Positions 628-25,914 of a stretch of DNA of 28,155 nt are shown here, in pieces (position 1 is the stretch's first letter; every line of letters starts with the position of its first letter). The stretch is from positions 1 to 28,155 of the IMG/VR virus record IMGVR_UViG_3300023192_001146. One strand, given 5' to 3'. The notes under the pieces are model-generated. The model had not been told where the DNA came from, made no database searches, and saw only the letters and a program-made list of their open reading frames with translations. Source of the stretch: a virus. The position numbers and the translations under genes were made by a program.

Positions 628-1683
628 TCAATCATATTTTTCCTTTACTGATATTTGATTGCCCGATTCTGTAATTAATACCGTAGCATCATCGGAGCGC
701 AATATTTCACAAGCAACTAATTTAGTAGCAATGTCTGTAATCATTGCTGGAACTCTACTACTACCAGCAAAATAAGTCACCTTAACAGAATTTAATTGAA
801 TATATGGAAATTTATTACGGAAAAATATTCTCCCCTCTCTATCAATTTTCCACCACTCATTCATTCTTCCTGCATCTTCTTTATCAGTAAAAAAAGACAC
901 TTCAAGACCATGTGCGGAAGTAGTTGAAGAACTACCATTTAGATAAATAGAACAACTTGCCCCATCATCACTAGGCAATAATGATGATATTAGAACTTTA
1001 TTGGAATTTTCGGAATCAAGCGAAGCATAAAAGAAATTCGAGACCGTTTTTGCCCCAGTGCTATCTGTTTGTGCTTTTGTAGCGATTGCCCCCGTTAAAC
1101 TAGCAGTGCTTGAAGGAAATCTTTCATTGATTAGTGAAACAAGTTCTTCTGCGGCTGTTTTATTACCATATGTAGTATCGAATCTTGAAGTTGTAGTTCC
1201 TGCTAATAGATTAAATATTAAACCACTATTAGGCAATCTAAGATTAATTTGAGATGTTCCACTAATCATAGATGTATAATCATTAAAAGTTACTGATGCT
1301 TCGGCAGACGCTAAATTAGTCCAATTATTCCCCTGCCATATTTCTAATTTAATAATTTTAGAAATGTGGTGTCTATCTAATTGAACAAATCCAATATAAT
1401 CTCTCCAAGCACTAGCAGGATAATGCCCAACACCAAAAGTAAAATTATGATGTTCCTTTTCATAAAGTAATCTTCGCCAAGAAGTTCCAGTTTTTTCATC
1501 AATAAAATCTTCTACCCTTTTTATAAATTCTCCAATTTCGGAATGCATTGGGGTAGTATTAGCATCGAAATCTGGAATCTGTAATAATTCTGCCACTTTA
1601 GAAGAAGTAGTATAATACCCATTTCCCGTTGCATAATTAGGATTAATTGTTGTATAATCTGAAGGGGAAAAGAATTTAGTCAT
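628..1683 (-). CDS. Head-tail connector (gp6-like) protein with extra beta domain
   Basis: This 351 aa protein probably joins the portal to the tail. The N terminus (residues 28-70) matches the gp6-like connector pattern: V-A-E-L-L-Q-I-P-D-F, then I-G-E-F-I-K-R-V-E-D-F-I-D-E-K-T-G-T-S-W. The C terminus (about 310-345) has the matching helix V-P-A-M-I-T-D-I-A-T-K-L-V-A-C-E-I-L. Between them (about 100-300) lies a Ser/Thr/Asn/Gly-rich, beta-rich insertion absent from the usual 90-120 aa connectors. The start follows the previous stop by 2 bases. The identification is by pattern from memory, and the role of the insertion is unknown. It is followed by small genes and then by what looks like the next neck or tail gene. 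Confidence 0.75.
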   Translation of the reverse strand: MTKFFSPSDYTTINPNYATGNGYYTTSSKVAELLQIPDFDANTTPMHSEIGEFIKRVEDFIDEKTGTSWRRLLYEKEHHNFTFGVGHYPASAWRDYIGFVQLDRHHISKIIKLEIWQGNNWTNLASAEASVTFNDYTSMISGTSQINLRLPNSGLIFNLLAGTTTSRFDTTYGNKTAAEELVSLINERFPSSTASLTGAIATKAQTDSTGAKTVSNFFYASLDSENSNKVLISSLLPSDDGASCSIYLNGSSSTTSAHGLEVSFFTDKEDAGRMNEWWKIDREGRIFFRNKFPYIQLNSVKVTYFAGSSRVPAMITDIATKLVACEILRSDDATVLITESGNQISVKEKYD

Positions 1684-1685
1684 AA

Positions 1686-2978
1686 TTAATTCCCCGCAGA
1701 TGGAATATCTTCTATTGCATCTTCTAAAGTTCCTACTCTATTTTTAAGATGTTTAACATAAGCATCTCTCGCTCTATTATATGGAGAAGTTTCTTTTTTC
1801 CTCTGTCTAAAAACATATGAACCCATTTCTTTTAAATTTATATTTACTTTAACTTCTATATAATTTCCTAATTCTTCATCATCATGAATTGGAATTTTGT
1901 TTCCTTCATCATCTAATTTAGGTTCTTCAAAATTAGGATTTGGTTCTGTTTCTTCTATTCTAACTTCTCCTGTTTCTTTATCTTTAATTTCTTCTGTAAG
2001 AAATTCTCTTTCATCTATTTCAAATGATTCCACAACTTCACCTATTTTATCAAATCTAAATTCAACTGTTAGGTGTAAATCATATAAATTATATGGGTCA
2101 CTAAGTTGTTCGGGTAATATTTGAAATAATGGGCTATTTTCACTCAAAAAATAGTCTTCTATAATTTTTTTAGGGGTTTTTCCTTCTTGTTTAGATATTT
2201 TTTTATCTTTCATTTCACGTTTTTTGTCTTCAAAATCTTTCAGTTGTTGTTCTTTAGTTTCTTCTCTTGTTAATTCTTTTACTTCTTCTAGAAAATCCTT
2301 TTTTTTCTGATGTTCTTTATTCCATTCTTCAATAAATTTTTTATCTAATTTAACATCATTAACTTTACTTGTATTTACTATTGTTTTTGGTCTAGAATAT
2401 TTCTTAAAAGAAAAATTTTCCGTTCCTAATACTTCTAAATTGGGTTCTGGTTGATTATATTTTAACTCTATTATAAGTTTATTTTTCTCTTCATCAAAAT
2501 CTAATTTAACATATTCATTACCTAATTTACTTCCATAAAGACTTTTAATTTTTTCTAATATTTGAGAATTGGTTATTTCCTTAACGCCCCTCATTATATC
2601 TATATCTTCATCTGCTTTTCCAACAAATTCTTGAGATAAATCTCTATTAGTAATATGTTCTAATAAAAAACTTTCAGGTATTTCTCCTAATTTAGAATAA
2701 AAATTTCTATCTTTCTTAGTAACATATAATTCAAATAATTCATTTAAAGAAGTGGTTTTTAATTCTGCTAAAACTTCTTTAGAAGTATCTCTTATCCAAT
2801 TTTCATGATTACTAGTATAATCAATTCCCTCATTAATATCTTGAAGTTTTTCATCAATCTCATCAATATTGCCTTTCATATCTTCTTCATAGCGATTTAA
2901 AATAAATATTCCAAAGACTTTTTTTAAATTAAAAGATGTAATAGTTTCAATATCATCTTCAAGCCAAAGGAATTTCAT
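1686..2978 (-). CDS. Acidic, charged unknown protein upstream of the connector
   Basis: This is a 430 aa protein, acidic with long Glu/Lys/Asp runs. The start has GAGGTGATTTCAA before the ATG. The N-terminal 120 residues are helical; the middle (about 215-280) is a charged coiled coil of the K-E-L-T-R-E-E type; and residues about 310-400 alternate beta-like segments (L-H-L-T-V-E-F-R-F and Y-I-E-V-K-V-N-I-N-L) with acidic loops. The final 45 residues are more basic. It has no enzymatic motif and is not recognised. Its place next to the head-tail connector suggests a neck, tail or assembly role, which is only inferred from position. Confidence 0.78.
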   Translation of the reverse strand: MKFLWLEDDIETITSFNLKKVFGIFILNRYEEDMKGNIDEIDEKLQDINEGIDYTSNHENWIRDTSKEVLAELKTTSLNELFELYVTKKDRNFYSKLGEIPESFLLEHITNRDLSQEFVGKADEDIDIMRGVKEITNSQILEKIKSLYGSKLGNEYVKLDFDEEKNKLIIELKYNQPEPNLEVLGTENFSFKKYSRPKTIVNTSKVNDVKLDKKFIEEWNKEHQKKKDFLEEVKELTREETKEQQLKDFEDKKREMKDKKISKQEGKTPKKIIEDYFLSENSPLFQILPEQLSDPYNLYDLHLTVEFRFDKIGEVVESFEIDEREFLTEEIKDKETGEVRIEETEPNPNFEEPKLDDEGNKIPIHDDEELGNYIEVKVNINLKEMGSYVFRQRKKETSPYNRARDAYVKHLKNRVGTLEDAIEDIPSAGN

Positions 2979-2989
2979 TTGAAATCACC

Positions 2990-3673
2990 TCAAGCCAGCC
3001 ATTTAGCCCATGCCGCACCCTTGGTAATCATTTTTCCTAATCCTAATCCGCTTGATGGGGGGGTATAACTCGCTTGACCCGTAGCAGGGTCCATCCAATA
3101 AGGATTATTATATTGGTCATAGCCATTAGGAGCAATAGGATAACCGCTTGTATTACCCATCGCTCCTTGTTGCATATTCATCTGTTGATTCATTCCCCCC
3201 ATTTGTGGGTTTCCTTGTATATTCATTGGGGGTTGTGTCTGCATTTGTGAAGTTGCTCCTACACTATCAACCCCAAATCCTTGTGATTCTAAATATTGAC
3301 TTTTAGCCATTTGTCTTTGATGAATTACTTCTTGATTAATACATGCATCTAAAATCTTTTGAATATCCAAATCAATATTTTCTTGAGTAATTTTTTGATA
3401 TTCAACAAGGCATTGTTTTTCTAAAATTATATCCCCTTGTGCGGCATCTAATTTAAATTGCAAACCAGCCAACATTTGACTCATTACCCTTTGAACTACA
3501 TCTTCCATCATATGTTCTACTTCTCTTAAAAATGCCTCACCATGATATTGAAAAAATTCCTCAACATGATTATCTTGTAAAGTCAAAAGATTGTTTATGG
3601 CTTTAAAATTATTATCTGTATTTTGAGTCATTTGACTGGCTAATGCACTATTACTTGTTCCCATTATTCCCAT
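2990..3673 (-). CDS. Met/Gln/Asn-rich low-complexity protein, possible virion protein
   Basis: This protein is about 227 aa from the ATG at 3673, preceded by GGTGAATAAT; a GTG three codons upstream overlaps that site. Residues 15-125 are helical and coiled-coil-like (H-H-M-M-E-D-V-V-Q-R type, with D-A-A-Q-G-D). Residues 145-205 are Gln/Met/Asn/Gly/Pro-rich and likely disordered (repeats of the G-M-N-Q-Q-M-N-M-Q-Q kind). The last 18 residues (G-K-M-I-T-K-G-A-A-W-A-K-W-L-A) form a short amphipathic hydrophobic helix that may touch a membrane. It lies between the zinc-site protein and an acidic protein. Function is unknown; a flexible internal or surface structural protein is plausible. Confidence 0.72.
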   Translation of the reverse strand: MGIMGTSNSALASQMTQNTDNNFKAINNLLTLQDNHVEEFFQYHGEAFLREVEHMMEDVVQRVMSQMLAGLQFKLDAAQGDIILEKQCLVEYQKITQENIDLDIQKILDACINQEVIHQRQMAKSQYLESQGFGVDSVGATSQMQTQPPMNIQGNPQMGGMNQQMNMQQGAMGNTSGYPIAPNGYDQYNNPYWMDPATGQASYTPPSSGLGLGKMITKGAAWAKWLA

Positions 3674-3674
3674 A

Positions 3675-4295
3675 TTATTCACCTATTAATTCTTCTATTT
3701 GATTTATTCTTCCCTTTAAGTTTATTAACAATAACACTAATTTTTCTTCTGCATTTATAGTATCGGCCTTCGGGGGTGTTATTTCCCAACCCTTAGCAGT
3801 TAATGAAACTATATCCTCTTTAGATAAAGCAACCAATGGACCCTTATTTATAATTTGGGGGATTCTTGGTTTGGGAATATATCTTTTAAATTCTAATCCA
3901 TGCTTTTCAGCAATAATTTGTTGCTCTAACATCTCTAATTGTTTAAATATAGAAGAGTGTTTAGGACAATAAGTTCCTTGAAGTGGCCTTCCTTTAGTAA
4001 CATGACTTAATGGAATTGGTGGACGTAAAACATCTCCCGATTCCCAAATATGATGTGCGCCACAAACAATACATCTATCTCTAATATTGAACTTATAACC
4101 AAATTTAAAAATAAATTTTTTCTTTTCCGGTGTTAATATTTTCTTTAATTCTTTTAGTTGCTTTTTAACACGCAAAGATTTAAACTCATAATTAATTATT
4201 GGACCAGCAATTCTAGCATTTCCACTAATTTTAAATGGATTAACCATAGAATTATTTTGCCCAATAATATTCGGTGCATAGACTTGTTGATTCAT
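3675..4295 (-). CDS. Zinc-site protein after the GTPase, unknown
   Basis: This is a 206 aa protein. C75-x2-C78 with H81/H82, and C110-x2-H113, form a likely zinc site with a 31-residue spacer. The N-terminal 60 residues include a low-complexity start and a Lys-rich segment (V-K-K-Q-L-K-E-L-K-K). The middle contains Pro-rich turns (P-P-I-P and K-P-R-I-P-Q). The C-terminal end is helical. GAGGGAATAATATG gives the ribosome binding site, 9 bases after the GTPase stop. It may be an effector or adaptor of the GTPase, or a structural protein; no family is recognised. Confidence 0.75.
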   Translation of the reverse strand: MNQQVYAPNIIGQNNSMVNPFKISGNARIAGPIINYEFKSLRVKKQLKELKKILTPEKKKFIFKFGYKFNIRDRCIVCGAHHIWESGDVLRPPIPLSHVTKGRPLQGTYCPKHSSIFKQLEMLEQQIIAEKHGLEFKRYIPKPRIPQIINKGPLVALSKEDIVSLTAKGWEITPPKADTINAEEKLVLLLINLKGRINQIEELIGE

Positions 4296-4304: not shown

Positions 4305-4982
4305 TCAATATTCCTTAACCATAGTCATTATTCCTCGATAGACCATCTCAGGGTCCGATTTGGCTGATATAATATACTTGAAGCATGGTATTCCTCTATC
4401 CTGTAACCTTTGCATACCGAGCCTGAATGGTTCAAAAATTGGATGTTTCTCGATTGGTCCGTCGTGTTCATATTTATCCTTCCATAAATCATATTTATTA
4501 GCCCATATACCTACTGCCACTGGAAAGTCCTTATCCTTTTTCTTTTTAGATTTTCCCTTCGCTAATCTCCAATAATCATCACATATTATATTAACTAAAT
4601 ATTCCCAACTTAAATGATGTTCTAAATTATATGCCTCGGATAAATGTCTATCATCAATCATAAAAATAATATATTTTACTCTGCGCCTCATTAAATCCTG
4701 TTTCCATTCTTCCCAAAATTGACTTTGACCCCCTACATCTGCGGTTTTAATTGTTCTAGAATCCCTATCTATTTTAATGACCTTTCGCCCCGCCCTACTT
4801 AATTTTGTTGTTCTACCTTTAATTATTGGAACTTCACCCCTTGTTCTTAATTGGTGATGTAATGTTGTTTTTCCCACCTGCCCTGCTCCATATATTCCAA
4901 AATTAATAGCGTGTATTCTCCTATACATTCCCGCAACTACTTCTGCGGTTATGATAGCAAAGCCGGTTAATAGCGTTGCCAT
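4305..4982 (-). CDS. Arf-like small GTPase with hydrophobic N terminus
   Basis: This 225 aa protein has a complete Ras-superfamily G domain: P-loop G32-A-G-Q-V-G-K-T39, switch II D82-V-G-G-Q86 (the Arf/SRP-receptor-like form, with the Gln that normally positions water), N162-K-Y-D165 and S206-A-K208. A candidate switch I lies around residues 55-62 (K-G-R-T-T-K). The first 20 residues are a hydrophobic stretch (L-L-T-G-F-A-I-I-T-A-E-V-V-A) that could insert in or lie on a membrane, as the N-terminal helix does in Arf and Sar1. There is a Lys-rich insertion at 142-151. It is directly preceded by two membrane-protein genes and followed by a zinc-site protein. Host-derived archaeal GTPases are known; one placed in a virion gene block is unusual. 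Its target is unknown. Confidence 0.9.
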   Translation of the reverse strand: MATLLTGFAIITAEVVAGMYRRIHAINFGIYGAGQVGKTTLHHQLRTRGEVPIIKGRTTKLSRAGRKVIKIDRDSRTIKTADVGGQSQFWEEWKQDLMRRRVKYIIFMIDDRHLSEAYNLEHHLSWEYLVNIICDDYWRLAKGKSKKKKDKDFPVAVGIWANKYDLWKDKYEHDGPIEKHPIFEPFRLGMQRLQDRGIPCFKYIISAKSDPEMVYRGIMTMVKEY

Positions 4983-5201
4983 TCAATCCCATCCTATTAC
5001 CCCTTTAAGAGAATCAATACCATAACCTATTACATCAACACCTAATGCACCCATAATATTACCAATTAAAAAGAAAGAAATAGTGAGGATTATTCCCCAT
5101 GTGTATGCCCTAAGTTTTAAAAAAAATACATCGGCAGAATGCGCTCTCGATAAATCATAGGCTAAAGCCTGTTCATCAACCCCTAATAATCTATCCAACA
5201 A
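4983..5201 (-). CDS. Small single-pass membrane protein next to the GTPase
   Basis: This is a 72 aa protein from a TTG start (5201) with GGTGATATTCT before it; no ATG is available in the frame before a stop codon. Residues 1-30 are amphipathic (acidic and basic with D-E-Q-A-L-A-Y-D-L). Residues 34-54 (T-W-G-I-I-L-T-I-S-F-F-L-I-G) are one transmembrane helix, and the Gly-rich C terminus (55-72) has additional hydrophobic residues. The stop is directly followed by the GTPase ATG, so the two are probably made together. It may be the membrane partner of the GTPase. Confidence 0.7.
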   Translation of the reverse strand: MLDRLLGVDEQALAYDLSRAHSADVFFLKLRAYTWGIILTISFFLIGNIMGALGVDVIGYGIDSLKGVIGWD

Positions 5202-5213
5202 AGAATATCACCA

Positions 5214-5591
5214 TCACGGCTCAAGTTGTAAAAATGTTTCGGGAACTTCATCATATACTTGAGTCTGTTGAAAATGTTGATTTCGACTATTTTTATGGTG
5301 TTCTCTAATCTTTTCTCTTTGCCTTTCATCTCGCTTTTTCTTTTCCCAATAAAAATCAATTTTACGATTAAGCAACCACATTTCCAATCTTTCATTAACT
5401 ATCATATCAAATAATGCCTTTTGCATCATAATTACACCAACGGTAATTAATGCAAAAAGCATCGCATGGGTAAATGGGCTAAATGGTAAATCTCCACCAT
5501 ATATCGAATAAAAATAAACATTCATTCCTGCCATTGCGCCTACATACATTATAGTCATTATTAGTCTTGTATCTTTGTCTAGTGCCGCCAT
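5214..5591 (-). CDS. Membrane protein with two transmembrane helices and charged C-terminal tail
   Basis: This is a 125 aa protein. Residues about 10-30 (I-M-T-I-M-Y-V-G-A-M-A-G-M) and 42-66 (H-A-M-L-F-A-L-I-T-V-G-V-I-M-M) are two clear hydrophobic helices separated by a short Gly/Pro loop. Residues 67-125 are very charged (K-K-K-R-D-E-R type) and then Gln/Asn-rich, probably cytoplasmic or inside the virion. The start has GAGGGAGATAAAATG. The next gene is another small membrane protein and the one after that a GTPase. A holin is possible, but the long charged tail and the neighbours fit a structural or membrane-anchoring role as well. Confidence 0.78.
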   Translation of the reverse strand: MAALDKDTRLIMTIMYVGAMAGMNVYFYSIYGGDLPFSPFTHAMLFALITVGVIMMQKALFDMIVNERLEMWLLNRKIDFYWEKKKRDERQREKIREHHKNSRNQHFQQTQVYDEVPETFLQLEP

Positions 5592-5601: not shown

Positions 5602-5919
5602 TCAATTAAATTCCACAGTGAATTTAGTTCCCGTTCCTACAACATCAGTTACATCAGCATATAACCCAGTTTTGAATATAACCCCATGCATATCTGCTTC
5701 TTCAAATGCCGCCCCAGTTGAGGCTAAACCTACATACAATAATCCAATCATATTAGCATCAGTGCAAGCACCCTGCGTTAAAGCATCATGTAATGTAACA
5801 TAACCAGTATCAGTGGTAAGTGAATATCCATGAATACTAATTAATTTACCTGAACCTGTATAAATTAAAGTATCTGCGCTAAACGCACCACTGCTTCTGC
5901 ATCCACCAACGCCGGTCAT
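5602..5919 (-). CDS. Small beta-rich protein, probable surface or decoration protein
   Basis: This is a 105 aa Gly/Thr/Ser/Ala-rich protein with alternating hydrophobic residues (L-I-Y-T-G-S-G-K-L-I-S-I-H and G-T-K-F-T-V-E-F-N at the end), typical of a beta-sandwich. Its start has AGAAGGAATTGTT, a site that can fold into a hairpin. It is low in Lys and has no tag or membrane segment. The composition resembles the 120 aa protein before it. Context suggests a capsid decoration or head-associated protein. The adjacent membrane proteins leave open a role in a membrane-linked structure. Confidence 0.72.
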   Translation of the reverse strand: MTGVGGCRSSGAFSADTLIYTGSGKLISIHGYSLTTDTGYVTLHDALTQGACTDANMIGLLYVGLASTGAAFEEADMHGVIFKTGLYADVTDVVGTGTKFTVEFN

Positions 5920-5967: not shown

Positions 5968-6303
5968 TTACTCATCGGAAGGGGCGTCTTCTTTTGGTTT
6001 TATAATAGTTTCTTTGACCTTTGCAGTGATTTTAGCGACGGTCGATTTCTTAGGCAATACCCTACCTTTAACTTCCGATACATTACAATTTAATTTTAAA
6101 GCCATATTAGTAAGAATCCCTTCATCTATATCTTTAAAATCTACTTCATTAAATTCAATTTTAATATTAGAAGCATCCATATATAACATTCCCAATTTAA
6201 CAGAAATGTCTTGAGAAATATCTATTTCAAAAATCTGCCCATTAAGTGCAGTAAATAACCCTGCATTTTGATGGGTTGGTTCTAATAGCGTTAAAGTCGC
6301 CAA
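5968..6303 (-). CDS. Small protein after capsid gene, unknown
   Basis: This is a 111 aa protein starting at a TTG (6303) with GAGGCGATTTG in front. The first 70 residues look like mixed beta/alpha (for example G-Q-I-F-E-I-D-I and I-K-I-E-F-N-E-V-D-F). The C-terminal 35 residues are Lys-rich with Thr/Val and end in an acidic tail. There is no tag or membrane segment. Located between two beta-rich proteins, it may be a further head accessory protein; its function is not recognised. Confidence 0.68.
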   Translation of the reverse strand: MATLTLLEPTHQNAGLFTALNGQIFEIDISQDISVKLGMLYMDASNIKIEFNEVDFKDIDEGILTNMALKLNCNVSEVKGRVLPKKSTVAKITAKVKETIIKPKEDAPSDE

Positions 6304-6313: not shown

Positions 6314-6676
6314 TCAAATTAAACCCCAAACTCTAACTCTAACGGTTCCGCCATTATCATCAGATGTAACTGTTGTTCCGCTTGCTACTGTGGTAAATTT
6401 AAATGCTACCGAAGTATTTGATTCATAAGCACCTGTTGCTGAACATTCTACTGTTGGTATAATATAATTAGTAGAATTATTGACGTTATCATCACCTGTA
6501 ATGCAAACCGCAGTAATTGTTGATAGTCCAAAATCACTAGCAGGTATAACTGAACCTAGCGCAACTATTTGTGTAATGTCGCAATATGCATCAACAACAT
6601 ATTCATCACCTACAACTTTTGGATTAGTCATCCCTTTATGGTCTGCAATTATTGTTACTGCTTTTACTAATGCCAT
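6314..6676 (-). CDS. Small beta-rich protein, probable capsid decoration or cement protein
   Basis: This is a 120 aa protein right after the capsid gene, preceded by GAGGTGATTAAAAATG. It is rich in Val, Thr, Gly, Ala and Asp with alternating hydrophobic residues (for example V-A-F-K-F-T-T-V and T-V-R-V-R-V-W-G-L-I at the end), as in a beta-sandwich. There are few Lys residues, and no tag, signal or membrane segment. Small beta-rich proteins directly downstream of HK97-type capsid genes are commonly head decoration proteins, so this is the likely role, but the call rests on context and composition. Confidence 0.75.
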   Translation of the reverse strand: MALVKAVTIIADHKGMTNPKVVGDEYVVDAYCDITQIVALGSVIPASDFGLSTITAVCITGDDNVNNSTNYIIPTVECSATGAYESNTSVAFKFTTVASGTTVTSDDNGGTVRVRVWGLI

Positions 6677-6687: not shown

Positions 6688-8040
6688 TCAGTAAAGATTG
6701 GTAATCTTACCTTGACCCTTAAAGAAAGTGCATCCTGTTTCTCCCATTGTTCGGTAAAGTCCTCGATTTCCGAGAACACCGACACCAAATGGATTTCCAT
6801 GTGAAATACCATCTTCAAAGTATTGGGTTGGTTTCATAGTTGCAAACCAAAGGTGGTCTGTATCTAATAGAAGCATATCGGATATTTTTGTTCCAGTGTA
6901 AGCACCAGTCTGTGCCATATCCTTACACGGAATCATAGGAATATCATAGTAGGTTGCTACTCGGAATCCAACTTCTGCACCCTTAACACCCTTTACCCCA
7001 TTATGAGAAGGAATAATTTCTTTAGAATCCATAAATCTTTCTTGAGCCTGTAACAAATCAGAAATTGCCTGTATTGTATCATACCCTGTTAGAATAACCT
7101 TTGGTGTTCCACCATTTAATCGAAGGTTTTGAATTGTTGCATTTATTACACTTAGAGTCATTACCCGACCTGCTGTAGCATAACTACCACCAAAATTTAC
7201 TTCGGAATCAAGATATGATGCAGTTCTTCGGTCTGCTCCATAGATAGTAGTTACATCATCATCAAGTGTTGCTAGATTAGTTGATGAAGTAAGATTGTGA
7301 ATACCAGTAGTATCAGCCAATTCAGCATTGCTACTTACTATCTTATTCAATGATGTGTAATTCTGCCTAATCAATCCACCACTGGTATCTGCGCCGAGAG
7401 TATCATAATTTTCAAGAGGCATAACCAGCATTACTGATTGAGATTCTGCATGGAATTTACCCATATCTTCACGAATCAATTTTCGTATGTCTCCAACACC
7501 ATCATCAATCTTTGCCATTTCTGCCGCCAATTCGCTGTAATCAAACATATGAGCGACAATCTTTGGATTCATGTAAAGAGTTGCATATTCTGGTGCTAGT
7601 GCTACAAGAGATGTTGATGCAAGTTCTTCGTTTTCACCAACGCCACCTAACAAATCACCATCAGGTTGGTCATCACCCATTGCATTTCCAGTTGTTGTAT
7701 TAACGGAGAATGCCGCACCACTCCCACCTTGAGGGCGGGCGGTCATTACTCTCCAACCGCTTGAAGTGTATGGCCGCTTAGGTAGAATTGAAAGTGGGTT
7801 GATTTCTTGATTAAGCATCGACCATACTTTTTGACCGTAAACCATATTGTAAAGTGCAGTTAGATTACTGCCCGCAGTTCCATTTAAACTAAGAGCATCA
7901 GCACTAGAACCAGCAAAACCAGAACCAATTTGAAATACACCACCAGCACTCTTCAAAAGAGCATTTCCCCCAGTTACATTCAATCCATAGCCATAAGTAG
8001 CCGCCTCTAAGTCTTTAATTGTATTAATATATGTAGTCAT
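6688..8040 (-). CDS. Major capsid protein, HK97 fold
   Basis: This 450 aa protein is the shell subunit. The call rests on its position right after the protease/scaffold, the Gly/Ala/Thr/Ser/Asn-rich composition without Lys-rich runs, and HK97-like C-terminal sequence: a helix with A-I-S-D-L-L-Q-A-Q-E-R-F, then F-R-V-A-T-Y-Y-D-I-P-M-I-P, then L-L-L-D-T-D-H-L-W-F-A-T. These patterns fit the P-domain core strands. The start has GAGGGGGCATAAAAATG. The base composition is richer in G+C than in its neighbours, as expected for a highly expressed protein. Length is within the normal range. Residues 1-110 could include an N-arm or a region cut by the protease. Confidence 0.9.
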   Translation of the reverse strand: MTTYINTIKDLEAATYGYGLNVTGGNALLKSAGGVFQIGSGFAGSSADALSLNGTAGSNLTALYNMVYGQKVWSMLNQEINPLSILPKRPYTSSGWRVMTARPQGGSGAAFSVNTTTGNAMGDDQPDGDLLGGVGENEELASTSLVALAPEYATLYMNPKIVAHMFDYSELAAEMAKIDDGVGDIRKLIREDMGKFHAESQSVMLVMPLENYDTLGADTSGGLIRQNYTSLNKIVSSNAELADTTGIHNLTSSTNLATLDDDVTTIYGADRRTASYLDSEVNFGGSYATAGRVMTLSVINATIQNLRLNGGTPKVILTGYDTIQAISDLLQAQERFMDSKEIIPSHNGVKGVKGAEVGFRVATYYDIPMIPCKDMAQTGAYTGTKISDMLLLDTDHLWFATMKPTQYFEDGISHGNPFGVGVLGNRGLYRTMGETGCTFFKGQGKITNLY

Positions 8041-9360: not shown

Positions 9361-11838
9361 CTATTTTAATTCTTCCGGCATTAAATCCGAATATTTATCA
9401 TTTGTAATATCCCATATACCATCATCACTACTAGAATCAACAGGTTTAGTTTCTAATCCAGTCCACGCCAACCATATTTTTTTATCCTTTACAGGTATGA
9501 CTCTAACATGAAATTTTGTATCGAATTTATTACCTTGTAAAATATATTCATGATAACCATTTCTTTGAACCCCTAATTCAACATCTCCAGAATCTATTAA
9601 TTTCCCTTTTCGGAAATTAGTTTGAATTTGGGCAGGGAATTTACCAGATTTGCCAAATAAAGAAAATATATCATCTTCGGATTCTATTTTTATTTCCCAT
9701 CCTATTGTAGTATCGTGTAATTTAAAAAGAATTGAAAGAGTATCATTATTATGATAAATTTTAAAATCCCCTTTTCTATATTTATCAGGGGTTTTATATG
9801 CTTTTTCTAATGTTCCTTCATTAGCAATAAATTTCCCATTACCTAAATAATCAATATCTTCTTGATGCCTAAGCCAATTCATCATTTTCTTTGAATCACT
9901 ACCAAATACATTATTAAATTCCTTTGGATTATTCTTTTTAACATATTCTTCTATTTCAGAAAACAGAGTTTCCCCATCTTTTTCAAGTAAAAAATTTCTA
10001 ATTGAGACTCTTAAATAGGCTTTTTCTTCTTTGAGCATATCTTCTATTTGGATTTTCCATACATCTAAATCTATTAATGCATTTTTAGCCATTAAATTAT
10101 TTTCTTCAAAACCATAAAATGTAAACCCATCCATCTCTCCTTTTATTATCACGGTCGCCTCTCCATGAATAGAATCAGTAATAGAATATCCTTTCTCTAA
10201 AGCCTTAACATCATAATTTAATGATTTTTTAGTATCTTTAGATAACATTTCCAAAGTAATTAATTTATCTGGTGTTTCTACTTCAGGAATTTCAATTACC
10301 TTAGCAGAAAACAAAGTATAACTCCCATCTTTATTTTTCTTAACTTCATCTACCTTTACCCGAATTATATCACCAATATCCACTTCTGTTTTAGTATTAA
10401 GGGCTTTACCAACATTAAGATATATCTTTTCATTAATGGTTTTAGTATTCTTATATTCTTCATCAACAGGACCAGCACCTAAAGTATAGGTGAACATATT
10501 AGATTTGGTTGTCTTCTTTTCTAATACTATTAAATCTAAATCTACAAATTTTTTCCATTTAATCCATTTGGGGTTTTTCTTTGTTCCTATAAAATAAGTA
10601 GAAGTAAGGTCTTTAATAACCACACCTTCTGCCGTGGGAATTTCCATTATTTCTTTTGCATAATCTTCAACTTGTTTTATTGAATCCGCAAAACGGGTAT
10701 CTTTTTTAGATGGAAAGGCCAAAAATTCATCCGAATGGATGGAATAATTATTGAAGAGAATTTGCAATCTTTCGGATAATGGGGCATCATGTAATTCGGT
10801 ATTCTCATTTCTCATAATATCAAATACATGAGCCTTCAAAACACCGTTGGATTTTTTACCTTTGAATATGCGAGCCACTACTTCTGCTCGATGTAATGGA
10901 GTTTCCCCATCAAATAACATTAATTCACCATCAAGTATGCAATCTCCAAAATGTTTTTTCTTCATAATTTCTATTTGTTTAGGACAATACTTGGTTATAT
11001 CTTTTCCATTAAAAGAATAAATCTTGACCTTATTATCTATTTTATGAATTTGAATCCTCATACCATCGTATTTTTCTTGAACTACATAATCTCCAGTGAA
11101 TCCCTTAAGTTCTTTTAAATCATCAATGTCGAAAATTCGATACATTGGTTTATTGGGAATTAGAAAATGCATGGCTGACTTTTCTGCTTTCTTTAAACTA
11201 ATGATATTATTCCAAGCAGAAGAACTATGTTGAGCAATGTAAATTTCTTCAAGTAATTTTTTAGCCGCTAAATATTTTCCCTTGATACGTTTAGTATCTT
11301 TATCATCACCATAATGTTCAACAATAAAATTTGCAATATCCGATTCTGCAAGATTAAGGCCAACATATCCATCAGTTAGAATATCTGGTTCTAAATCCTT
11401 AGATTTCCACGCATCTTCGGATAATGCGTTTCCATGACGACGAATGGCCCAATGAATAAATTTAGCAAAAATAGAAACGTCTTCAAATAAATTTTCTAAA
11501 ACTTCTGTTTTGAATTTATTAACGAAAGGGTCTTTTATTTTCTCGGAAGAATAACGTAAATCTTTAATCTGTTCATAAAGATGCCTAGCAGTATCACTTT
11601 CAACATTTTCCGCTTCATTAGAAAATAAATCCTTTTCAACAATTACATCTTTAATTACTTTGCTAAAATCGTCAATATTATCCCATTGTTCTCTTAAAGT
11701 CTTAACTTTACTCATCCATTTTTTAGCATATACCTTTGGGTCGGATAGGGCAGAAAGATAACCCATTCGGAAGTCTTCAAAAAAATGAATAATCCTAATA
11801 GTTAAAGGGTCTTTCTCTTTTTCAACGGAAAGTGGCAC
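9361..11838 (-). CDS. ATP-dependent DNA ligase with large N- and C-terminal extensions
   Basis: It seals nicks via a covalent lysyl-AMP intermediate. It is 825 aa from a GTG (11838) preceded by AAGGTGATTTT. Motif I is K256-Y-D-G-M-R; motif III I-L-D-G-E-L (302-306); motif IV E-G-V-V-I-K (404-409); motif V W-I-K-W-K (425-429); all are intact, and an OB-fold region follows to about 530. Archaeal ligases are usually near 560-600 aa, so about 290 residues after the OB-fold are extra. That part has a winged-helix-like segment (about 640-690) and a beta-rich end with H-E-Y-I-L-Q-G and W-L-A-W, distantly recalling LigD phosphoesterase-like domains; this is tentative. The N-terminal 240 residues do not obviously match the usual ligase DNA-binding domain. 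Its place in the head module suggests packaging or virion DNA repair. Confidence 0.9.
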   Translation of the reverse strand: MPLSVEKEKDPLTIRIIHFFEDFRMGYLSALSDPKVYAKKWMSKVKTLREQWDNIDDFSKVIKDVIVEKDLFSNEAENVESDTARHLYEQIKDLRYSSEKIKDPFVNKFKTEVLENLFEDVSIFAKFIHWAIRRHGNALSEDAWKSKDLEPDILTDGYVGLNLAESDIANFIVEHYGDDKDTKRIKGKYLAAKKLLEEIYIAQHSSSAWNNIISLKKAEKSAMHFLIPNKPMYRIFDIDDLKELKGFTGDYVVQEKYDGMRIQIHKIDNKVKIYSFNGKDITKYCPKQIEIMKKKHFGDCILDGELMLFDGETPLHRAEVVARIFKGKKSNGVLKAHVFDIMRNENTELHDAPLSERLQILFNNYSIHSDEFLAFPSKKDTRFADSIKQVEDYAKEIMEIPTAEGVVIKDLTSTYFIGTKKNPKWIKWKKFVDLDLIVLEKKTTKSNMFTYTLGAGPVDEEYKNTKTINEKIYLNVGKALNTKTEVDIGDIIRVKVDEVKKNKDGSYTLFSAKVIEIPEVETPDKLITLEMLSKDTKKSLNYDVKALEKGYSITDSIHGEATVIIKGEMDGFTFYGFEENNLMAKNALIDLDVWKIQIEDMLKEEKAYLRVSIRNFLLEKDGETLFSEIEEYVKKNNPKEFNNVFGSDSKKMMNWLRHQEDIDYLGNGKFIANEGTLEKAYKTPDKYRKGDFKIYHNNDTLSILFKLHDTTIGWEIKIESEDDIFSLFGKSGKFPAQIQTNFRKGKLIDSGDVELGVQRNGYHEYILQGNKFDTKFHVRVIPVKDKKIWLAWTGLETKPVDSSSDDGIWDITNDKYSDLMPEELK

Positions 11839-12812: not shown

Positions 12813-13064
12813 TTAATCATCTCTTAATAAATATTTAAATTTTTCTTGATAAAATTTTCCAAATGTAGATTGTAATTCTTTAAAATCTGGACTATCTATA
12901 AACAGATTATCTAACTCATCGGGTGTTGTATTATATTTCAAAAGAAACTCGGCTAATATTTTTATGGTTAATTCACTATCACCCATTATTTGCTTAGGGC
13001 GTCTTTCTTGTTCTTGCCAAATCTCGTCTTCTGCATCTTTCTTTAATTCATTTTTCCAACTCAT
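12813..13064 (-). CDS. Small tagged acidic unknown protein
   Basis: This is an 83 aa protein starting with MSWKNELKK, a tag variant in which the usual Ile at position 6 is Glu. The tag is followed by a strongly charged segment (D-A-E-D-E) and a compact helical body with several Phe and Leu residues. The last codons supply the ribosome binding site region of the next gene, and its own start lies in a 4-base ATGA overlap with the preceding stop. No domain is recognised. It is part of the tagged cluster between portal and ligase. Confidence 0.72.
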   Translation of the reverse strand: MSWKNELKKDAEDEIWQEQERRPKQIMGDSELTIKILAEFLLKYNTTPDELDNLFIDSPDFKELQSTFGKFYQEKFKYLLRDD

Positions 13065-13516
13065 TTCTTATCCCTCAAACTACCTGCACTTTTTGGATAT
13101 ACTATTTTTCTAATTTGACGATACAATTGTTCATACTGCTTACGAAGTTTGCTGGCAGTAGCAATCATATCAACATTTTGCTCATTAATGGATTTCATCT
13201 TTTTCTTTAATTTGGAATCATCTTTAACCAAATCCAATGTTTCCATCATATCAATTAACTCTCCTAACTTAGTATAATCTTGACCGAAATATTCTGTTGG
13301 TTCTGCCGCCTGTAATGTTTTCTTAAGGCTTTTCTTCTTTTTAGAATCGAGAGCATTAAGAATTTTACTCTCTTCTTTTAATAAAGACTCTTTCTTAACA
13401 GACTCAACCTGCTCAACAGTTGCAAGAGCATCAACCATTGGTTCATCAGTATTACCATCACCATCTAAATCAGGGTAATCGGGTCTTTGGTTTTTAAGTA
13501 TATTTTGCCAATTCAT
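13061..13516 (-). CDS. Tagged protein with calcium-loop-like motif
   Basis: This is a 151 aa protein starting with the tag MNWQNILKN. Right behind it, residues 16-25 read D-L-D-G-D-G-N-T-D-E, which looks like the Asp-rich half of a calcium-binding loop (D-x-D-x-D-G), although the usual Glu at position 12 is missing. The remainder is basic and helical, with Lys-rich runs (residues about 55-65 and 98-108) and a C-terminal Arg/Lys-rich tail. The start has GGGGGTAATTAAAATG. It overlaps the next gene by 4 bases. One candidate role is a basic internal protein that contacts DNA. Calcium binding is only a possibility. Confidence 0.75.
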   Translation of the reverse strand: MNWQNILKNQRPDYPDLDGDGNTDEPMVDALATVEQVESVKKESLLKEESKILNALDSKKKKSLKKTLQAAEPTEYFGQDYTKLGELIDMMETLDLVKDDSKLKKKMKSINEQNVDMIATASKLRKQYEQLYRQIRKIVYPKSAGSLRDKK

Positions 13517-14891: not shown

Positions 14892-15113
14892 TCAATAAAA
14901 TGGTATATTTTCCTTTTTAGGTTTTCTTTGTTTAGGCAAATGAATCACACTAGGAATTTCATTTGTTTTAGGTTCTGGTCTATCCTTTTCTTTAGATAAA
15001 TTCATTGGCCTGTAATCAGTATTTTCCATCTTCGCTCTTTCTTGCTGAGTAAGAATCCTTTCTGCTTGCATTAGTTTTTTTCTCATTTTTGTCGTTTCTT
15101 CTCTTGTTACCAT
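14892..15113 (-). CDS. Small basic hypothetical protein
   Basis: This is a 73 aa, very basic protein without the tag. The N-terminal half is a charged helix (Thr/Lys/Arg/Glu), and the C-terminal half is Pro/Lys/Asn-rich and probably disordered. The ATG is preceded by GGACAAGTAAT within the end of the previous gene, with which it overlaps by 7 bases. A downstream ATG at residue 10 is an alternative. Basic composition is compatible with nucleic acid binding or charge neutralisation inside a capsid, but nothing in the sequence proves either. Confidence 0.62.
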   Translation of the reverse strand: MVTREETTKMRKKLMQAERILTQQERAKMENTDYRPMNLSKEKDRPEPKTNEIPSVIHLPKQRKPKKENIPFY

Positions 15114-15355
15114 ATTACTTGTCCAATAATTAGTTCAACTGCACTATTCATATCTAATGCTTTATCTCCCTTTCCCATCGCATTATGCATAATTAATTTA
15201 ATACTATAATATAAAGAAGAAATATCTTTTGGTGAATAATCTTTCACATTATCTATTGTTATAGTTTCTTTTTCATCCTCTTCCCAAGGCCCATCAAAGG
15301 CCCCTGTTTCTTCAAATGTAGGCACTTTCTCTTTAAGTATTTTTTCCCAAGTCAT
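15107..15355 (-). CDS. Small tagged unknown protein
   Basis: This is an 82 aa protein from the ATG at 15355, giving the tag MTWEKILKEK. The frame is open from a GTG three codons upstream, but that GTG lies inside the GGTGATT ribosome binding site that serves the chosen ATG. After the tag comes a low-complexity acidic linker (about residues 13-30, E/D-rich with Pro and Gly), then a helical C-terminal half. It overlaps the next gene by 7 bases. Function is unknown; the tag plus acidic linker layout matches other members of the set. Confidence 0.72.
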   Translation of the reverse strand: MTWEKILKEKVPTFEETGAFDGPWEEDEKETITIDNVKDYSPKDISSLYYSIKLIMHNAMGKGDKALDMNSAVELIIGQVIW

Positions 15356-15356
15356 T

Positions 15357-15647
15357 TTAATCACCCATTATCTTTTTTTGTTGTAAAAGACTAATCCATT
15401 GTTCTCTTAATCCCATATCTCTAGTAATATATTTAGTTAAAGGCTCAAGAATTATAACTGCATTATCTGTTACCGAACCCTGCGTTTCTACATCTCTATA
15501 TTGCGTCTTTTGACCCACATTTTCATGCCATTTATTAGAAATCTCTCGACCATTCTTAATGTTGTTATTCAACATCCATAAAACCATCTCTTCAATATTA
15601 TTAAATTGTGGTGGTGTAATTTCTTTTAATATATTTTTCCAATTCAT
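15357..15647 (-). CDS. Small tagged unknown protein
   Basis: This is a 96 aa protein starting with the tag MNWKNILKE, then a short Thr-Pro-Pro linker and a helical, mixed-charge body. GGCGGAATTTAATG supplies the ribosome binding site, and the start overlaps the portal stop by one base (TAATG). It is the first of the second cluster of tagged genes. The final codons GGGTGA supply the ribosome binding site (GGTGATT) of the next gene. No known domain is recognised. A position right after the portal would fit an internal head protein or a portal-associated factor. Confidence 0.75.
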   Translation of the reverse strand: MNWKNILKEITPPQFNNIEEMVLWMLNNNIKNGREISNKWHENVGQKTQYRDVETQGSVTDNAVIILEPLTKYITRDMGLREQWISLLQQKKIMGD

Positions 15648-17293
15648 TAAATTCCGCCTCTTTCAGTCCTTCTATCTACATTATTATTTGCGGCTTCTTT
15701 TGGTAAACCTTTGTTCCGATTAGGTGGCCCTACGCTCATTTTAGGTTTAGGACTTGCGGCTTTTACTTTGGCTGGTTGCCCTGCTTCGGCCATTGTTGGT
15801 TTAGTTCCGGCTTCCATCATTTGCCCTAATTGTGATTGGTCTATATCTGTTCCAGCATAAGGGTCACGTTCTATTTCTTCCTCTTCTTGAACTTCTCCTT
15901 CGGGTTGGGGTTCAGGTTTTGTATAAATGAATTTACCTTCTTCATCCATATCTACCTCAAATCCAAGATTCTTAATTTGCCCTGCAATATTAACTTCAAT
16001 TTCACGCTTTCTCATTGTAGCAATTTCATCTTCTTCTTCCGAAGGTGGTAGCACAATATTCCAATCAGTAATTCCAAATTGTTTAACAATAAATGTAAAT
16101 ACATACTTATTCCAAACACTCTGCGCCATTTCAACTGCACGATTAGTTACAAGAATTTGCATACCTTCATTATTTAATCCACCACTAGTTGAACTATCAG
16201 CCATGAAAATTTTACTTACACCATAAAATGCTGAAATCCTATCTCTTAAATCTTCTTTAACAGCCATATAATCCATTTCTTTTAAACTATCCATAAATTT
16301 AATCCATTCAACAGAACCTTTCCCATTTTCTGCTTCAATACCCATCACTGGAATAAAATGGGCATCTTGTTCCATCTTTTCTTTAACACCTCGCCAAAAT
16401 GTTCGCATAGATTCAATATTTCTAGTTTGAACAGCCAATAATCCTCTAGGCATTCTTGCTTTGGTATAGGCTTGATTAATATAATTCTCCATAGCAATAA
16501 GAGTTGTTAAGTGATTCCACATAGTAATGATTGGACTTGACCCATATAATCTACTAGGAGAATATTTACTAAAATGAAGAACTTCTCCTTTAATGAAATG
16601 TTGTTCTTCTCCATGCGCTCTATTAGTATAATGAACAGGGAATAATTCACATCCACATTCATCACATTTCTCAAAAGGTTCTGTAACTATTATATCTCTA
16701 TGATTAATACAAGTAAAAGCATTTCCACCCTTATTGCCATCATCATCACATACAATAGCCATAGTTACTGGGTCAGCCCTATATAATTGTTTAATTCTAT
16801 GCGCCTTAATCTGCCCATTGCCATCAAGGAAATATTCTTTGACTAGAACTAAATATGCGTCATCCATGATATTCAAATCATCTTCTAATTCCTTAAGAAT
16901 ATCAATAAACATTTGTTCCGATTCATTTACATATTCACAATGTAGAAAAGTATCTGCGTATATTTTTTGTGCAGGGTCAGGTTTTCGTAAATTATTAGAT
17001 TTACATTCAGCACATTTATCCACAATATTACCATGTTCTTTTCCGCAATCTTCACATTTCAATTCAAATTTAGACGACCATTCATATCCTCTTCTAAATA
17101 TTTCATTCTTTAATTGGGTAATACAAGTTCGCAAAATTACAGAACTTTGAGAAATATGGTAAATAATTGGCCCAGTCATCATTAAAGGATGATGCTGTTC
17201 TTGAATGCCCATTTGATAAATTTCTCTGTCTAAAGGAACAGGTGTAGATTTCCTAAAAAAATTCATAACTGAAAATCGTCGCTTTTCCGTCAT
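15647..17293 (-). CDS. Portal protein with two zinc-ribbon-like insertions
   Basis: This is the dodecameric vertex channel for DNA entry and exit, called from length (548 aa), position right after the terminase block, and typical portal sequence such as Y-H-I-S-Q-S-S-V-I-L-R-T near residue 45-56 and the helix-rich middle with F-Y-G-V-S-K-I-F-M-A-D (about residue 353-363). The start has GAGGGAGAATG. Unusually, it carries two candidate zinc ribbons: C80-x2-C83 with C94-x2-C97, and C195-x2-H198 with C210-x2-C213 (plus C215). The C-terminal 100 residues are Pro/Glu/Lys-rich and look disordered. Zinc sites could stabilise the portal or bind a partner such as the protease or terminase. The stop overlaps the next start by one base. 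Confidence 0.9.
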   Translation of the reverse strand: MTEKRRFSVMNFFRKSTPVPLDREIYQMGIQEQHHPLMMTGPIIYHISQSSVILRTCITQLKNEIFRRGYEWSSKFELKCEDCGKEHGNIVDKCAECKSNNLRKPDPAQKIYADTFLHCEYVNESEQMFIDILKELEDDLNIMDDAYLVLVKEYFLDGNGQIKAHRIKQLYRADPVTMAIVCDDDGNKGGNAFTCINHRDIIVTEPFEKCDECGCELFPVHYTNRAHGEEQHFIKGEVLHFSKYSPSRLYGSSPIITMWNHLTTLIAMENYINQAYTKARMPRGLLAVQTRNIESMRTFWRGVKEKMEQDAHFIPVMGIEAENGKGSVEWIKFMDSLKEMDYMAVKEDLRDRISAFYGVSKIFMADSSTSGGLNNEGMQILVTNRAVEMAQSVWNKYVFTFIVKQFGITDWNIVLPPSEEEDEIATMRKREIEVNIAGQIKNLGFEVDMDEEGKFIYTKPEPQPEGEVQEEEEIERDPYAGTDIDQSQLGQMMEAGTKPTMAEAGQPAKVKAASPKPKMSVGPPNRNKGLPKEAANNNVDRRTERGGI

Positions 17294-19077
17294 TCTCCCT
17301 CATCTCCTTTTGGCCCTTTATGTTCAAATAAATAATCACTTGCATCATCAACACTAGACCATTCATGTTCAGTAAGTTCATTTTCCTCTTCAATTTCTTC
17401 AAGGTCATTTATTACTTCATCGACATTACCTTTATTTGTTTCTGCCCATTTATCCCATTTATCTTCCCATAACTTAACAACATTCATTATTTTATCTATA
17501 ACTGATTGTGGAAATCTAACAAAAGAAATTCCAGATTCATCCTCGTTTAAATTATTAATTATTTCTTTTTCCTTATCTGTTAATTGATTAACAATTGTAT
17601 TAACCATATCTGGTATATACATGAAATGCACTTTATCTTTAAAATAAGCAGGGACGGCAGACAAATTGACTGAAGGTTCAATAATCCATTCTTTAATTGC
17701 TCGATTAACTTTATCCGATTTAACAATACTTTCTAATTCAGTCATAGTATTCATTTTACAATTATCTTTATATTTAGAAATATTTTCAATATCAATATCA
17801 TCTTTAGAAAAATCATAATTTACATGGTCTGCATGATTAGCCCATTTCATTAATTTAAACAGTTCAGTCATTCTTTCTTTAGCCCAAGGCTCTTTCTTAT
17901 GGTTTTTCTTAATACGAATTAATTCTGTAAGAATATCAGCATTGGCTCCCTTCATACGAAAATAAGGTCTACATTTTCCAATTAATGTTGTAATATCTCC
18001 TTGTGAATAAAAATTAAGTCTATTTACAGGGCGAGTTCCTTGTGGGGATTTTTGGTCTAAATGTAATTTACCAATTCCTAATTCTTTGTGTAACTCAGTA
18101 ACGAAGGCTTTTCCACGATTTCCAGTAGCAACCATACCTATTCTTGGGTTGTGGTTTCTATCCATTGTAATATAACCATCCGAATCTATAAAAGCGGCAG
18201 TATAGGCATACAGGTCTTTTTTAATTTCATCTGTTAATTTATAATATTCACCTTCAATATTAGTAATATCCAACCTATCTGCAACCTTACAAATCATCTG
18301 TGTAGAACTTCTCCGATGCAATTTAGAAGGCAATTTATCATAAATATTTCTTGCGGAAATTCCCTGATTTTCACATACTGACTTCAATACAAAATCATCT
18401 AATTGAGAAGAAATATTTTTCTTAATAGAGTGAATTGGAATTTTATTAATACATTTCCTAAATTCTCTTTTAGCCTTAGTCATTTTCTTACTTAATTTAG
18501 AATAATCTTCATTGTAATTTACACCTCTATGTAATTCTGCTTCCCAATATTTACAGAGGCTTTCAATTATTTCCCGTCTATTTGTTTTATCTTTAATTGA
18601 ATGTATTTTCTTTAAATCTGCTTCTGTATAACGCATTTGCCGTAATGGGGTTTCATATGGAGATAACCAATATATTGATTTAATACAATTTGAAAGGTGG
18701 TCGGAATAAGCCATAATTAAATTATCAATTCCTTTACTAAATTCTATCTTTTCTTCACCTTTCAGGGTTCTTCTAAATTTCTTTAAATCTTTAACAAGTG
18801 TTGGAATCTTTTTCTCTTTAATCACATATTCTTTAGGAAATGATTCTAAAGAGCGTTTCGCTTGTGAAATATTCACATTATATTTTTTAGAAATTCCAAT
18901 GGCTATTTCATAATCATCATTAATTGGAAGGGTGCTTATCCAATTACGAACACTATCTAAATCTTCTTTAACTTCGTCTTTTTTATCTGCCAAAATTGCT
19001 AATTCTCCAATATGTTCTGCTTCTAAGCGAAGTTTTTTACCTTCTTCACCTTCTTCATTTTTAGAAATTAAGACCAA
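17290..19077 (-). CDS. LAGLIDADG homing endonuclease-domain protein between terminase and portal
   Basis: This protein is about 595 aa from a TTG at 19077, preceded by GGGGGGTGGAT; a GTG at 19086 and a TTG at 19149 are alternatives. The N-terminal 200 residues are charged and helical. A winged-helix-like segment follows (about residues 235-275), then a single LAGLIDADG motif, A-A-F-I-D-S-D-G-Y-I (around 294-303), with the expected strands and helix after it (I-G-M-V-A-T-G-N through P-Y-F-R-M-K-G). The last 30 residues are strongly acidic. It overlaps the terminase stop by about 17 bases and shares ATGA with the portal start. Such tight coupling is odd for a free-standing selfish gene. It could be a domesticated nuclease or a virion gene carrying an endonuclease insertion. 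Confidence 0.85.
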   Translation of the reverse strand: MVLISKNEEGEEGKKLRLEAEHIGELAILADKKDEVKEDLDSVRNWISTLPINDDYEIAIGISKKYNVNISQAKRSLESFPKEYVIKEKKIPTLVKDLKKFRRTLKGEEKIEFSKGIDNLIMAYSDHLSNCIKSIYWLSPYETPLRQMRYTEADLKKIHSIKDKTNRREIIESLCKYWEAELHRGVNYNEDYSKLSKKMTKAKREFRKCINKIPIHSIKKNISSQLDDFVLKSVCENQGISARNIYDKLPSKLHRRSSTQMICKVADRLDITNIEGEYYKLTDEIKKDLYAYTAAFIDSDGYITMDRNHNPRIGMVATGNRGKAFVTELHKELGIGKLHLDQKSPQGTRPVNRLNFYSQGDITTLIGKCRPYFRMKGANADILTELIRIKKNHKKEPWAKERMTELFKLMKWANHADHVNYDFSKDDIDIENISKYKDNCKMNTMTELESIVKSDKVNRAIKEWIIEPSVNLSAVPAYFKDKVHFMYIPDMVNTIVNQLTDKEKEIINNLNEDESGISFVRFPQSVIDKIMNVVKLWEDKWDKWAETNKGNVDEVINDLEEIEEENELTEHEWSSVDDASDYLFEHKGPKGDEGE

Positions 19078-25639: not shown

Positions 25640-25909
25640 TCATTTCCCAATCATTTCTAAAACTTCAGGAAGGATTTTATTTAAATTATAAGTAGTTAAA
25701 TATTCTTTCCCATTAACATTAATCGCAAATTCACTTATGCCCTTTTGTATAATTTTTATATATCCAGCATCATGAGAAAGAATCATATCAATTTTCCATT
25801 TTCCCCTTCCTCTCATTTTATCTGTAATCTCTCCACCTGTTTTTTCCTGAATAGATTGTAGAAATTCTCTAGCAGTTATTATTTTTTTCAGTATATCTTG
25901 CCAACCCAT
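25640..25909 (-). CDS. Small tagged basic/mixed unknown protein
   Basis: This is an 89 aa protein when started at the ATG at 25909, giving the tag MGWQDILKK. An ATG three codons upstream (25918) is also in frame, but it overlaps the end of the previous gene and leaves no room for a ribosome binding site, whereas GGAATGATTACA lies well placed before the chosen start. The body has a Gly/Arg/Lys-rich stretch near residues 27-37 and a beta-like segment with Asn-Gly-Lys-Glu-Tyr around residue 65. Function is unknown. The stop codon TGA lies inside the leader of the next gene. Confidence 0.72.
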   Translation of the reverse strand: MGWQDILKKIITAREFLQSIQEKTGGEITDKMRGRGKWKIDMILSHDAGYIKIIQKGISEFAINVNGKEYLTTYNLNKILPEVLEMIGK

Positions 25910-25914
25910 TGTAA

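Follow-up and report, generated by a model that had tools for sequence, protein, structure and literature searches.

A five-gene unit was identified in the virion gene block of a virus represented by 28,155 nt of DNA (IMG/VR record IMGVR_UViG_3300023192_001146, positions 1 to 28,155; hereafter, the window). It comprises genes for an Arf-like small GTPase, two membrane proteins (TM125 and TM72), a zinc-site protein (ZN) and a fifth protein (c230). The existence of the module, its all-or-none inheritance, the intact catalytic motifs, the Arf-type fold, the helices and the position among the virion genes form the established part of the explanation put forward here. We propose, at slightly less than an even chance, that the unit is a vertically inherited late module consisting of a membrane-associated Arf-type GTPase switch and its own partners. 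The GTPase would cycle GTP, be recruited to a membrane and, through interactions among the five proteins, take part in assembly or egress.

Gene order

The unit is flanked by the head genes on one side and by the connector and tail-tube genes on the other, all on one strand and with gaps of a few bases. The features of the region are as follows.

6688..8040 (-): major capsid protein, HK97-type (SU10_MCP), HCTV-1-related, given for context
5602-5919, 5968-6303 and 6314-6676 (-): three small genes in the capsid-accessory position, the left border
5214..5591 (-): TM125, 125 aa, a hairpin of two helices with an invariant Phe-Leu at the end of its basic tail, 12 nt upstream of TM72
4983..5201 (-): TM72, 72 aa, a one-helix membrane protein with a juxtamembrane RAHSA, directly abutting the GTPase gene with no gap
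4305..4982 (-): Arf-like small GTPase, 225 aa, assigned from G motifs, Pfam matches, an AlphaFold2 model and PDB fold ranking
3675..4295 (-): ZN, a 206-aa soluble protein with a CxxC...CxxH site, 9 nt downstream of the GTPase gene
2990..3682 (-): c230, 230 aa, the fifth member of the unit by co-inheritance
1686..2978 (-): T2, a length-variable gene downstream of the unit, equivalent in position to a 577-951 aa gene of the sister clade described below
628..1683 (-): T3, a protein in the head-tail-connector position, relative of HCTV-1 gene 117, the conserved right border

Portal, terminase, protease and HK97-type capsid genes flank the cassette, and the gene order was the same in essentially all of 80 relatives. 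A reading of the window made from the letters before any searches (the sequence-only reading) had described a GTPase gene preceded by two membrane proteins and followed by a zinc-site protein within the virion block, and this arrangement was borne out. The same reading had ended a four-gene cassette at the zinc-site protein; the zinc site stood, and the boundary did not. Because c230 (2990-3682) is co-inherited with TM125, TM72, the GTPase and ZN, the unit is taken as five genes.

Several other features of the surroundings were recorded. Within the head block, between the portal and protease genes, an ATP-dependent DNA ligase of 825 aa with a long N-terminal extension is encoded (9361-11838, -). 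A 619-aa frame with an HNH-endonuclease match (17290-19149, -) sits between the genes for portal and terminase, sharing ~90 bases with the terminase frame. The product of the gene just before T3 (window 1686-2978; in the sister clade, for example, L196:5590-8247) varies from ~350 to 960 aa among relatives and gave no family match. The GTPase and ZN genes of some relatives are separated by an additional gene or by as much as ~0.9 kb, and the product of one such gene (L040:8666-9205) starts with MWFDILK, like the tagged proteins described below.

Motifs and fold of the GTPase

The following parts of the GTPase were located in the window, with switch-I Thr58 serving as G2.

4914..4979 (-): hydrophobic N-terminal helix, residues 2-23, with near-invariant Glu14 (model and hydropathy)
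4866..4889 (-): G1 / P-loop, GAGQVGKT, residues 32-39 (alignment and pattern)
4725..4739 (-): G3, DVGGQ, residues 82-86, with the catalytic position Gln or Glu only in relatives
4488..4499 (-): G4, NKYD, residues 162-165 (motif)
4359..4367 (-): G5, SAK, residues 206-208 (motif)

Searching Pfam with the window GTPase gave SRPRB (E=3e-5), Arf (E=3e-4) and MMR_HSR1 (E=1e-3), all just below the curated cut-offs; the top match, SRPRB (PF09439), scored 23.8 bits against a cut-off of 25, and Arf (PF00025) scored 21.0 bits against 22.3. An Arf match at E<=0.1 was obtained for just 28 of 48 relatives. The AlphaFold2 model, built with 48 relatives as input (pLDDT 76.7, pTM 0.78), has an N-terminal helix at residues 2-23, hydrophobic by hydropathy, ahead of the G domain. 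In the PDB fold ranking, where rows within 1 Z count as tied, ARF6, ARL1 and ARF1 came out on top (Z 16.9-16.6, rmsd 2.4-2.6 over ~161 residues), and G-alpha (Z ~15) and Rab (Z ~14.5) ranked lower. Classification of the GTPase rests on this fold comparison because a PDB profile search with the family alignment gave no match at E<=0.01. The window protein is a complete small GTPase, of Arf type by its predicted fold. Sequence, Pfam and fold (Z up to 16.9) thereby agree with the earlier description of an intact GTPase having all G motifs and a hydrophobic N terminus.

Among relatives, DxGG[QE], which is of the Arf/SRbeta/G-alpha type, was found in 80/80 and switch-I TxG in 79/80, the exception being the window's own copy (TTK). 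Residue 14 was Glu in 79 of the 80 and Asp in the other one, and the N-terminal helix is moderately amphipathic (mean moment 0.34). The phage collection searched with the GTPase protein gave no match at E<=0.01, the plasmid collection gave noise only, and the defence-system library gave no match. In the viral fold library, the recognised virus names among the matches listed were those of giant-virus proteins, mostly of Rab/Ras type, with no tailed phage among them.

The Pfam result bears on one alternative, that the GTPase is an SR-beta or Arf-like decoy diverting the protein-translocation or vesicle machinery of the host, with the membrane proteins as its anchor. SRPRB as top match, just short of the cut-off, is in keeping with it, as is the hydrophobic N terminus, which recalls the membrane anchor of SR-beta. 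Neither the virion-block position nor the constant linkage to ZN and c230 points to a decoy, however, and a decoy would have no need of the catalytic residues that are kept. To our knowledge, archaea do not generally carry SR-beta, and we regard a decoy as improbable.

Conservation and selection

A scan of IMG/VR returned at least 410 contigs encoding the GTPase. The G1, G2, G3 and G5 patterns were present in all 173 distinct GTPase sequences and G4 in 172, and G32, G37, K38 and T39 were invariant in a 48-member alignment. Residue 86, the catalytic position of G3, was Gln in 44 and Glu in 60 of 104 thinned sequences, with nothing else found there; the two were swapped at least four times on the tree, three of these swaps being forced by strong branches. 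Ras with Glu at the catalytic Gln site hydrolyses GTP faster than the wild type. The limitation of residue 86 to Gln or Glu argues for hydrolysis having been retained.

Median dN/dS, approximate since it was obtained by the Nei-Gojobori method on moderately diverged pairs, was 0.12 for the GTPase, 0.18 for the capsid protein and 0.16-0.26 for TM125, ZN and TM72. Pairwise distances of the GTPase and the capsid protein agreed (Mantel r 0.86; 0/999 permutations as high), and the GTPase is therefore considered to be inherited vertically with the virus. Together, the sequence comparisons support a GTPase that is under purifying selection and is a fixed member of the virion gene block throughout one virus clade.

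Inheritance of the unit

Family profiles were applied to loci spanning the capsid to the connector gene. All five genes were present in 102 loci, none in 46, and a mixed set in 0, the counts of 102 and 46 including some contigs that appear under several locus names. As a guard against circularity in the sampling, the linkage test was repeated from other ends, namely, the capsid gene and TM125. The GTPase was present in 47/47 capsid-found loci with >=3.5 kb downstream, TM72 and the GTPase were both present in 66/66 TM125-found loci, and all five genes were present in 59/59 further GTPase loci with both flanks. TM72 was found in every cassette-bearing locus that spans its position.

The sequence-only reading would have been refuted by absence of the gene from close relatives, as a chance acquisition, or by decay of the G motifs in them. 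The presence of the GTPase in all 47 capsid-found loci speaks against chance acquisition, and the motifs are intact in the 173 distinct sequences, bar the one G4 change. Confinement of the unit to one clade is what neutral cargo, of no use to the virus, might look like, but the intact motifs, the low dN/dS and the constant linkage already contradict it, leaving it a very slight probability.

A second capsid search, seeded on Haloarcula tailed virus HCTV-1, added haloviruses and a further marine clade. In these loci outside the GTPase clade (the haloviruses and the sister marine clade), no GTPase, TM125, TM72 or ZN was found near the capsid gene, and longer contigs of the sister clade (up to 92 kb), searched over their whole length, gave no GTPase, ZN or TM125. 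On a capsid tree of 101 sequences, made by a quick method with a midpoint root, GTPase presence maps as one change, on a branch with an SH-aLRT of 98%. The order in the sister clade is capsid, three small genes, one large variable gene and connector T3, the last being a clear homologue (profile E 1e-104). Relative to this order, the GTPase clade has the five genes as an insertion that separates the variable gene from the small genes. The candidate explanation that the sister clade's large gene represents fused cassette genes was rejected, as it had no profile similarity to the GTPase, TM125, TM72, ZN or c230.

Since the haloviruses also are without the unit, its history is most simply read as a single gain. 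The flanking head and connector genes are shared by the sister clade, where the unit is missing, so the unit is dispensable for this head type in general. It is optional for the general virion plan, no loss was seen once it had been gained, and the sister clade also has polymerase and chaperonin genes.

Among 84,980 prokaryote genomes scanned with exact short patterns, which leave distant host GTPases beyond reach, the cassette was found in two contigs only, both of one Maricaulis MAG. These contigs (L160 and L161; NZMJ01000024.1 and NZMJ01000101.1) carry the viral cassette and a capsid gene, and they are most likely mis-binned virus DNA.

Virus identity

The capsid protein of the window is related to that of HCTV-1. 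A 72.8-kb contig (L001) is near-identical to the window, with a GTPase that is 100% identical, and it has a family-B polymerase, as do longer relatives. The criteria used for Magrovirales were an HCTV-1-related HK97 capsid protein, a viral family-B polymerase, a chaperonin and genomes of 90-100 kb. All of the 5 GTPase-clade records examined for it had a family-B polymerase, split in two in three cases, and 4/8 GTPase-clade records had a chaperonin, these records being kin of the window fragment; the sister clade has a chaperonin too. A two-piece polymerase is also shown for Aoguangviridae in the ICTV profile (PMC10768690). Judged by these genes, the window virus fits the magroviruses, viruses of marine Poseidoniales archaea, and the large ocean virus clade carrying the unit probably infects archaea. 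The GTPase is not mentioned in a survey of magroviruses (PMC10160649).

Membrane proteins TM125 and TM72

TM72 of the window has a TTG start and one helix by hydropathy. An invariant Arg-Ala-His-Ser-Ala precedes the single helix of the family and is followed by Asp in most members (RAHSAD). In TM125, helices joined by a short loop form a hairpin, and a long charged tail follows, its invariant Phe-Leu end placed behind a variable linker. At the hydropathy threshold used, two helices were called in 53 of 79 TM125 members and one in 26, including the window's copy. Of the two-helix and one-helix proteins described earlier from the window, the second is therefore as described, and the first holds for the 53 members, the window's own copy passing for one helix only.

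The late position of these genes and their products, small membrane proteins with charged tails in a class II holin-like topology, would suit a lysis or holin-type module in which the single membrane would be permeabilised by TM125 and TM72 at a time set by the GTPase or ZN. A membrane has to be opened by archaeal tailed viruses, and few of their lysis genes are known. Against such a module, no holin family match was obtained for the membrane proteins in Pfam, PHROGs and NCBIfam, where archaeal lysis proteins are poorly represented; typical holins are far less constrained than the juxtamembrane motif of TM72 and the C-terminal Phe-Leu of TM125; and we know of no lysis genes that require a GTPase. 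The sequence-only reading would have yielded to proof that the membrane proteins are an unrelated lysis pair. Because the five genes are co-inherited all or none, an unrelated pair is unlikely; a lysis role for the whole unit stays a rival of the membrane-switch reading, and a quite unlikely one.

ZN and c230

The four putative zinc ligands of ZN (C75-x2-C78 ... C110-x2-H113) were invariant in 48 aligned relatives. ZN has no Pfam relative and resembles no known GAP; its fold model was modest (pTM 0.52) and had no PDB match at Z 2 or more, an absence that shows nothing. c230 starts with a conserved, helical-looking part, continues with a linker rich in Q, N and M and closes with a C-terminal stretch that is again conserved and ends in KWLA. 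Short conserved ends behind flexible linkers are typical of docking peptides, and the FL of TM125, the KWLA of c230 and the RAHSA of TM72 resemble docking sites and may act as such.

N-terminal peptide in other genes

Ten of the 36 window genes start with a W-x-x-hydrophobic-hydrophobic-K/R peptide, for example, MSWKDILK, compared with 0.08 expected in shuffled proteins. The tagged genes are listed below.

171-449, 13061-13516, 15107-15364, 15357-15647 and 25640-25918 (-): N-terminal peptide
25915-26232, 26248-26430, 26443-26697, 26726-27106 and 27099-27932 (-): N-terminal peptide

Many of the tagged genes show no evident similarity past the start, and the proteins encoded at 26443 and 27099 contain a similar peptide once more, internally. 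The tag was found at the N terminus of 161/2658 ORFs of the GTPase clade (3.6 at internal sites), 85/446 ORFs of the sister clade (0.2 at internal sites) and 0/257 ORFs of the haloviruses. The cassette proteins of the window are without it. It may serve in targeting, docking or processing, by analogy with the capsid-targeting sequence of T4, and the observation may rival the finding of the GTPase module.

The tag also bears on whether the five proteins are virion components, whether as minor proteins of the head or connector or as an internal lipid patch, the GTPase then acting inside the particle or once delivered to the next host. The genes sit between the capsid accessory genes and the connector and tail-tube genes, the conserved C-terminal peptide of c230 follows a disordered-looking linker as in scaffold-like or docking proteins, and the GTPase diverges in step with the capsid protein (Mantel r 0.86). 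It is nevertheless hard to fit two integral membrane proteins in a lipid-free tailed virion, the sister clade makes the same head without the unit, and the cassette proteins lack the W-x-x-I-L-K tag common to many other proteins of these viruses. A virion location is considered unlikely, at roughly one chance in five.

Comparison with known systems

The closest working analogue of the viral unit is ArvABC, the archaeal vesiculation operon of Haloferax volcanii (HVO_3014-3012) (PMC10927574). ArvA is a small GTPase that drives membrane budding and is needed for normal vesicle formation, and its deletion abolishes RNA-associated vesicles in Haloferax; membrane insertion is predicted for its amphipathic helix at the N terminus (PMC10927574). 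It has two operon partners, one of which, ArvC, is a Zn-ribbon protein and a proposed GAP (PMC10927574). Like ArvABC, the viral unit combines, in a short operon, a small GTPase having a hydrophobic N-terminal helix with a zinc-site partner, and ArvA, like the viral GTPase, is hard to place between PF01926 (MMR_HSR1) and PF00025 (Arf). ArvABC differs in being cellular and in having no component of two membrane proteins such as TM125 and TM72. ArvB (DUF2073, PF09846/OapB) had no match in the window, whereas the control genomes Haloferax and Methanosarcina did match, and 0/48 ZN members matched the ArvC family (DUF2072) at E<=1. The unit is not classed as ArvABC because the ArvB family is absent from the window and ZN is unmatched to the ArvC family.

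Arf, Arl and Sar proteins, including Asgard ArfR (PDB 8oum, 8ouk), were the best structural matches to the viral GTPase (Z 15-17) and share DxGGQ, the switch-I TxG and a helix before the G domain. Cells employ GTPases of this kind for bending and tagging membranes. The viral protein differs from them in its 14-25% identity over the fold, a similarity to PDB chains that is too low for building a tree, in having no Gly2 for myristoylation and in the Glu that replaces Gln in about half of its members. SRP receptor beta is likewise a membrane-anchored Arf-like GTPase and the top Pfam match, but the viral GTPase falls below the Pfam cut-off, has no SR-alpha partner and carries a short helix with a near-invariant Glu in place of a clear anchor. 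Taking these likenesses together, we infer that the viral GTPase may work like ArvA or Arf, with membership of neither family claimed.

Virus-encoded small GTPases are also represented by the Mimivirus Rab (PDB 5xc5). Giant viruses encode Rab-type GTPases, one of which was proposed to serve virion membrane formation (PMC4569851). These Rab/Ras-like GTPases differ from the viral unit described here in belonging to eukaryotic viruses of another realm, in being of Rab type and in having no fixed structural-gene cassette with membrane partners. No Arf-like GTPase module was found reported for a tailed virus in the open-access papers searched, an earlier mention in magrovirus papers outside this set being possible.

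Proposed role

In the proposed membrane switch, whose genes would be expressed alongside those of the virion, TM125 and TM72 would be seated in the host membrane, and the GTP-bound GTPase would move onto that membrane by way of its N-terminal helix, the GDP form being released. The membrane-bound GTPase would then recruit the soluble partners ZN and c230, which would bring capsids or connectors to a site on the membrane used for virion assembly or for exit from the cell. The near-invariant Glu and the moderate amphipathicity of the N-terminal helix count against such a switch, as does the lack of resemblance of ZN to any known GAP or to ArvC.

Tailed viruses are thought to assemble without membranes and to exit by lysis. 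In its fuller form, the proposal is that an entire clade of tailed viruses abundant in the sea supplies an Arf-type GTPase, together with two membrane partners and two adaptors, by which the membrane of the archaeon is remodelled or marked at virion assembly or in non-lytic egress, in parallel to Arf/COPI and ArvABC; this is possible, and we hold it to be rather unlikely. Of what the sequence-only reading had suggested, dedicated membrane partners for an intact Arf-like GTPase were upheld, and assembly at or release through the membrane, or a membrane inside the particle, gained no direct support. Since the sister marine viruses and the haloviruses are without the unit, it answers no general need of this virion type.

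The exit of archaeal tailed viruses is largely unexplained. If true, the presence in viruses of abundant marine archaea of a fixed Arf-like switch that they encode themselves, with membrane partners, would give a concrete handle on it. It would also mean that Arf-type membrane control has reached prokaryotic viruses, for which the sister clade without the unit would offer a natural comparison.
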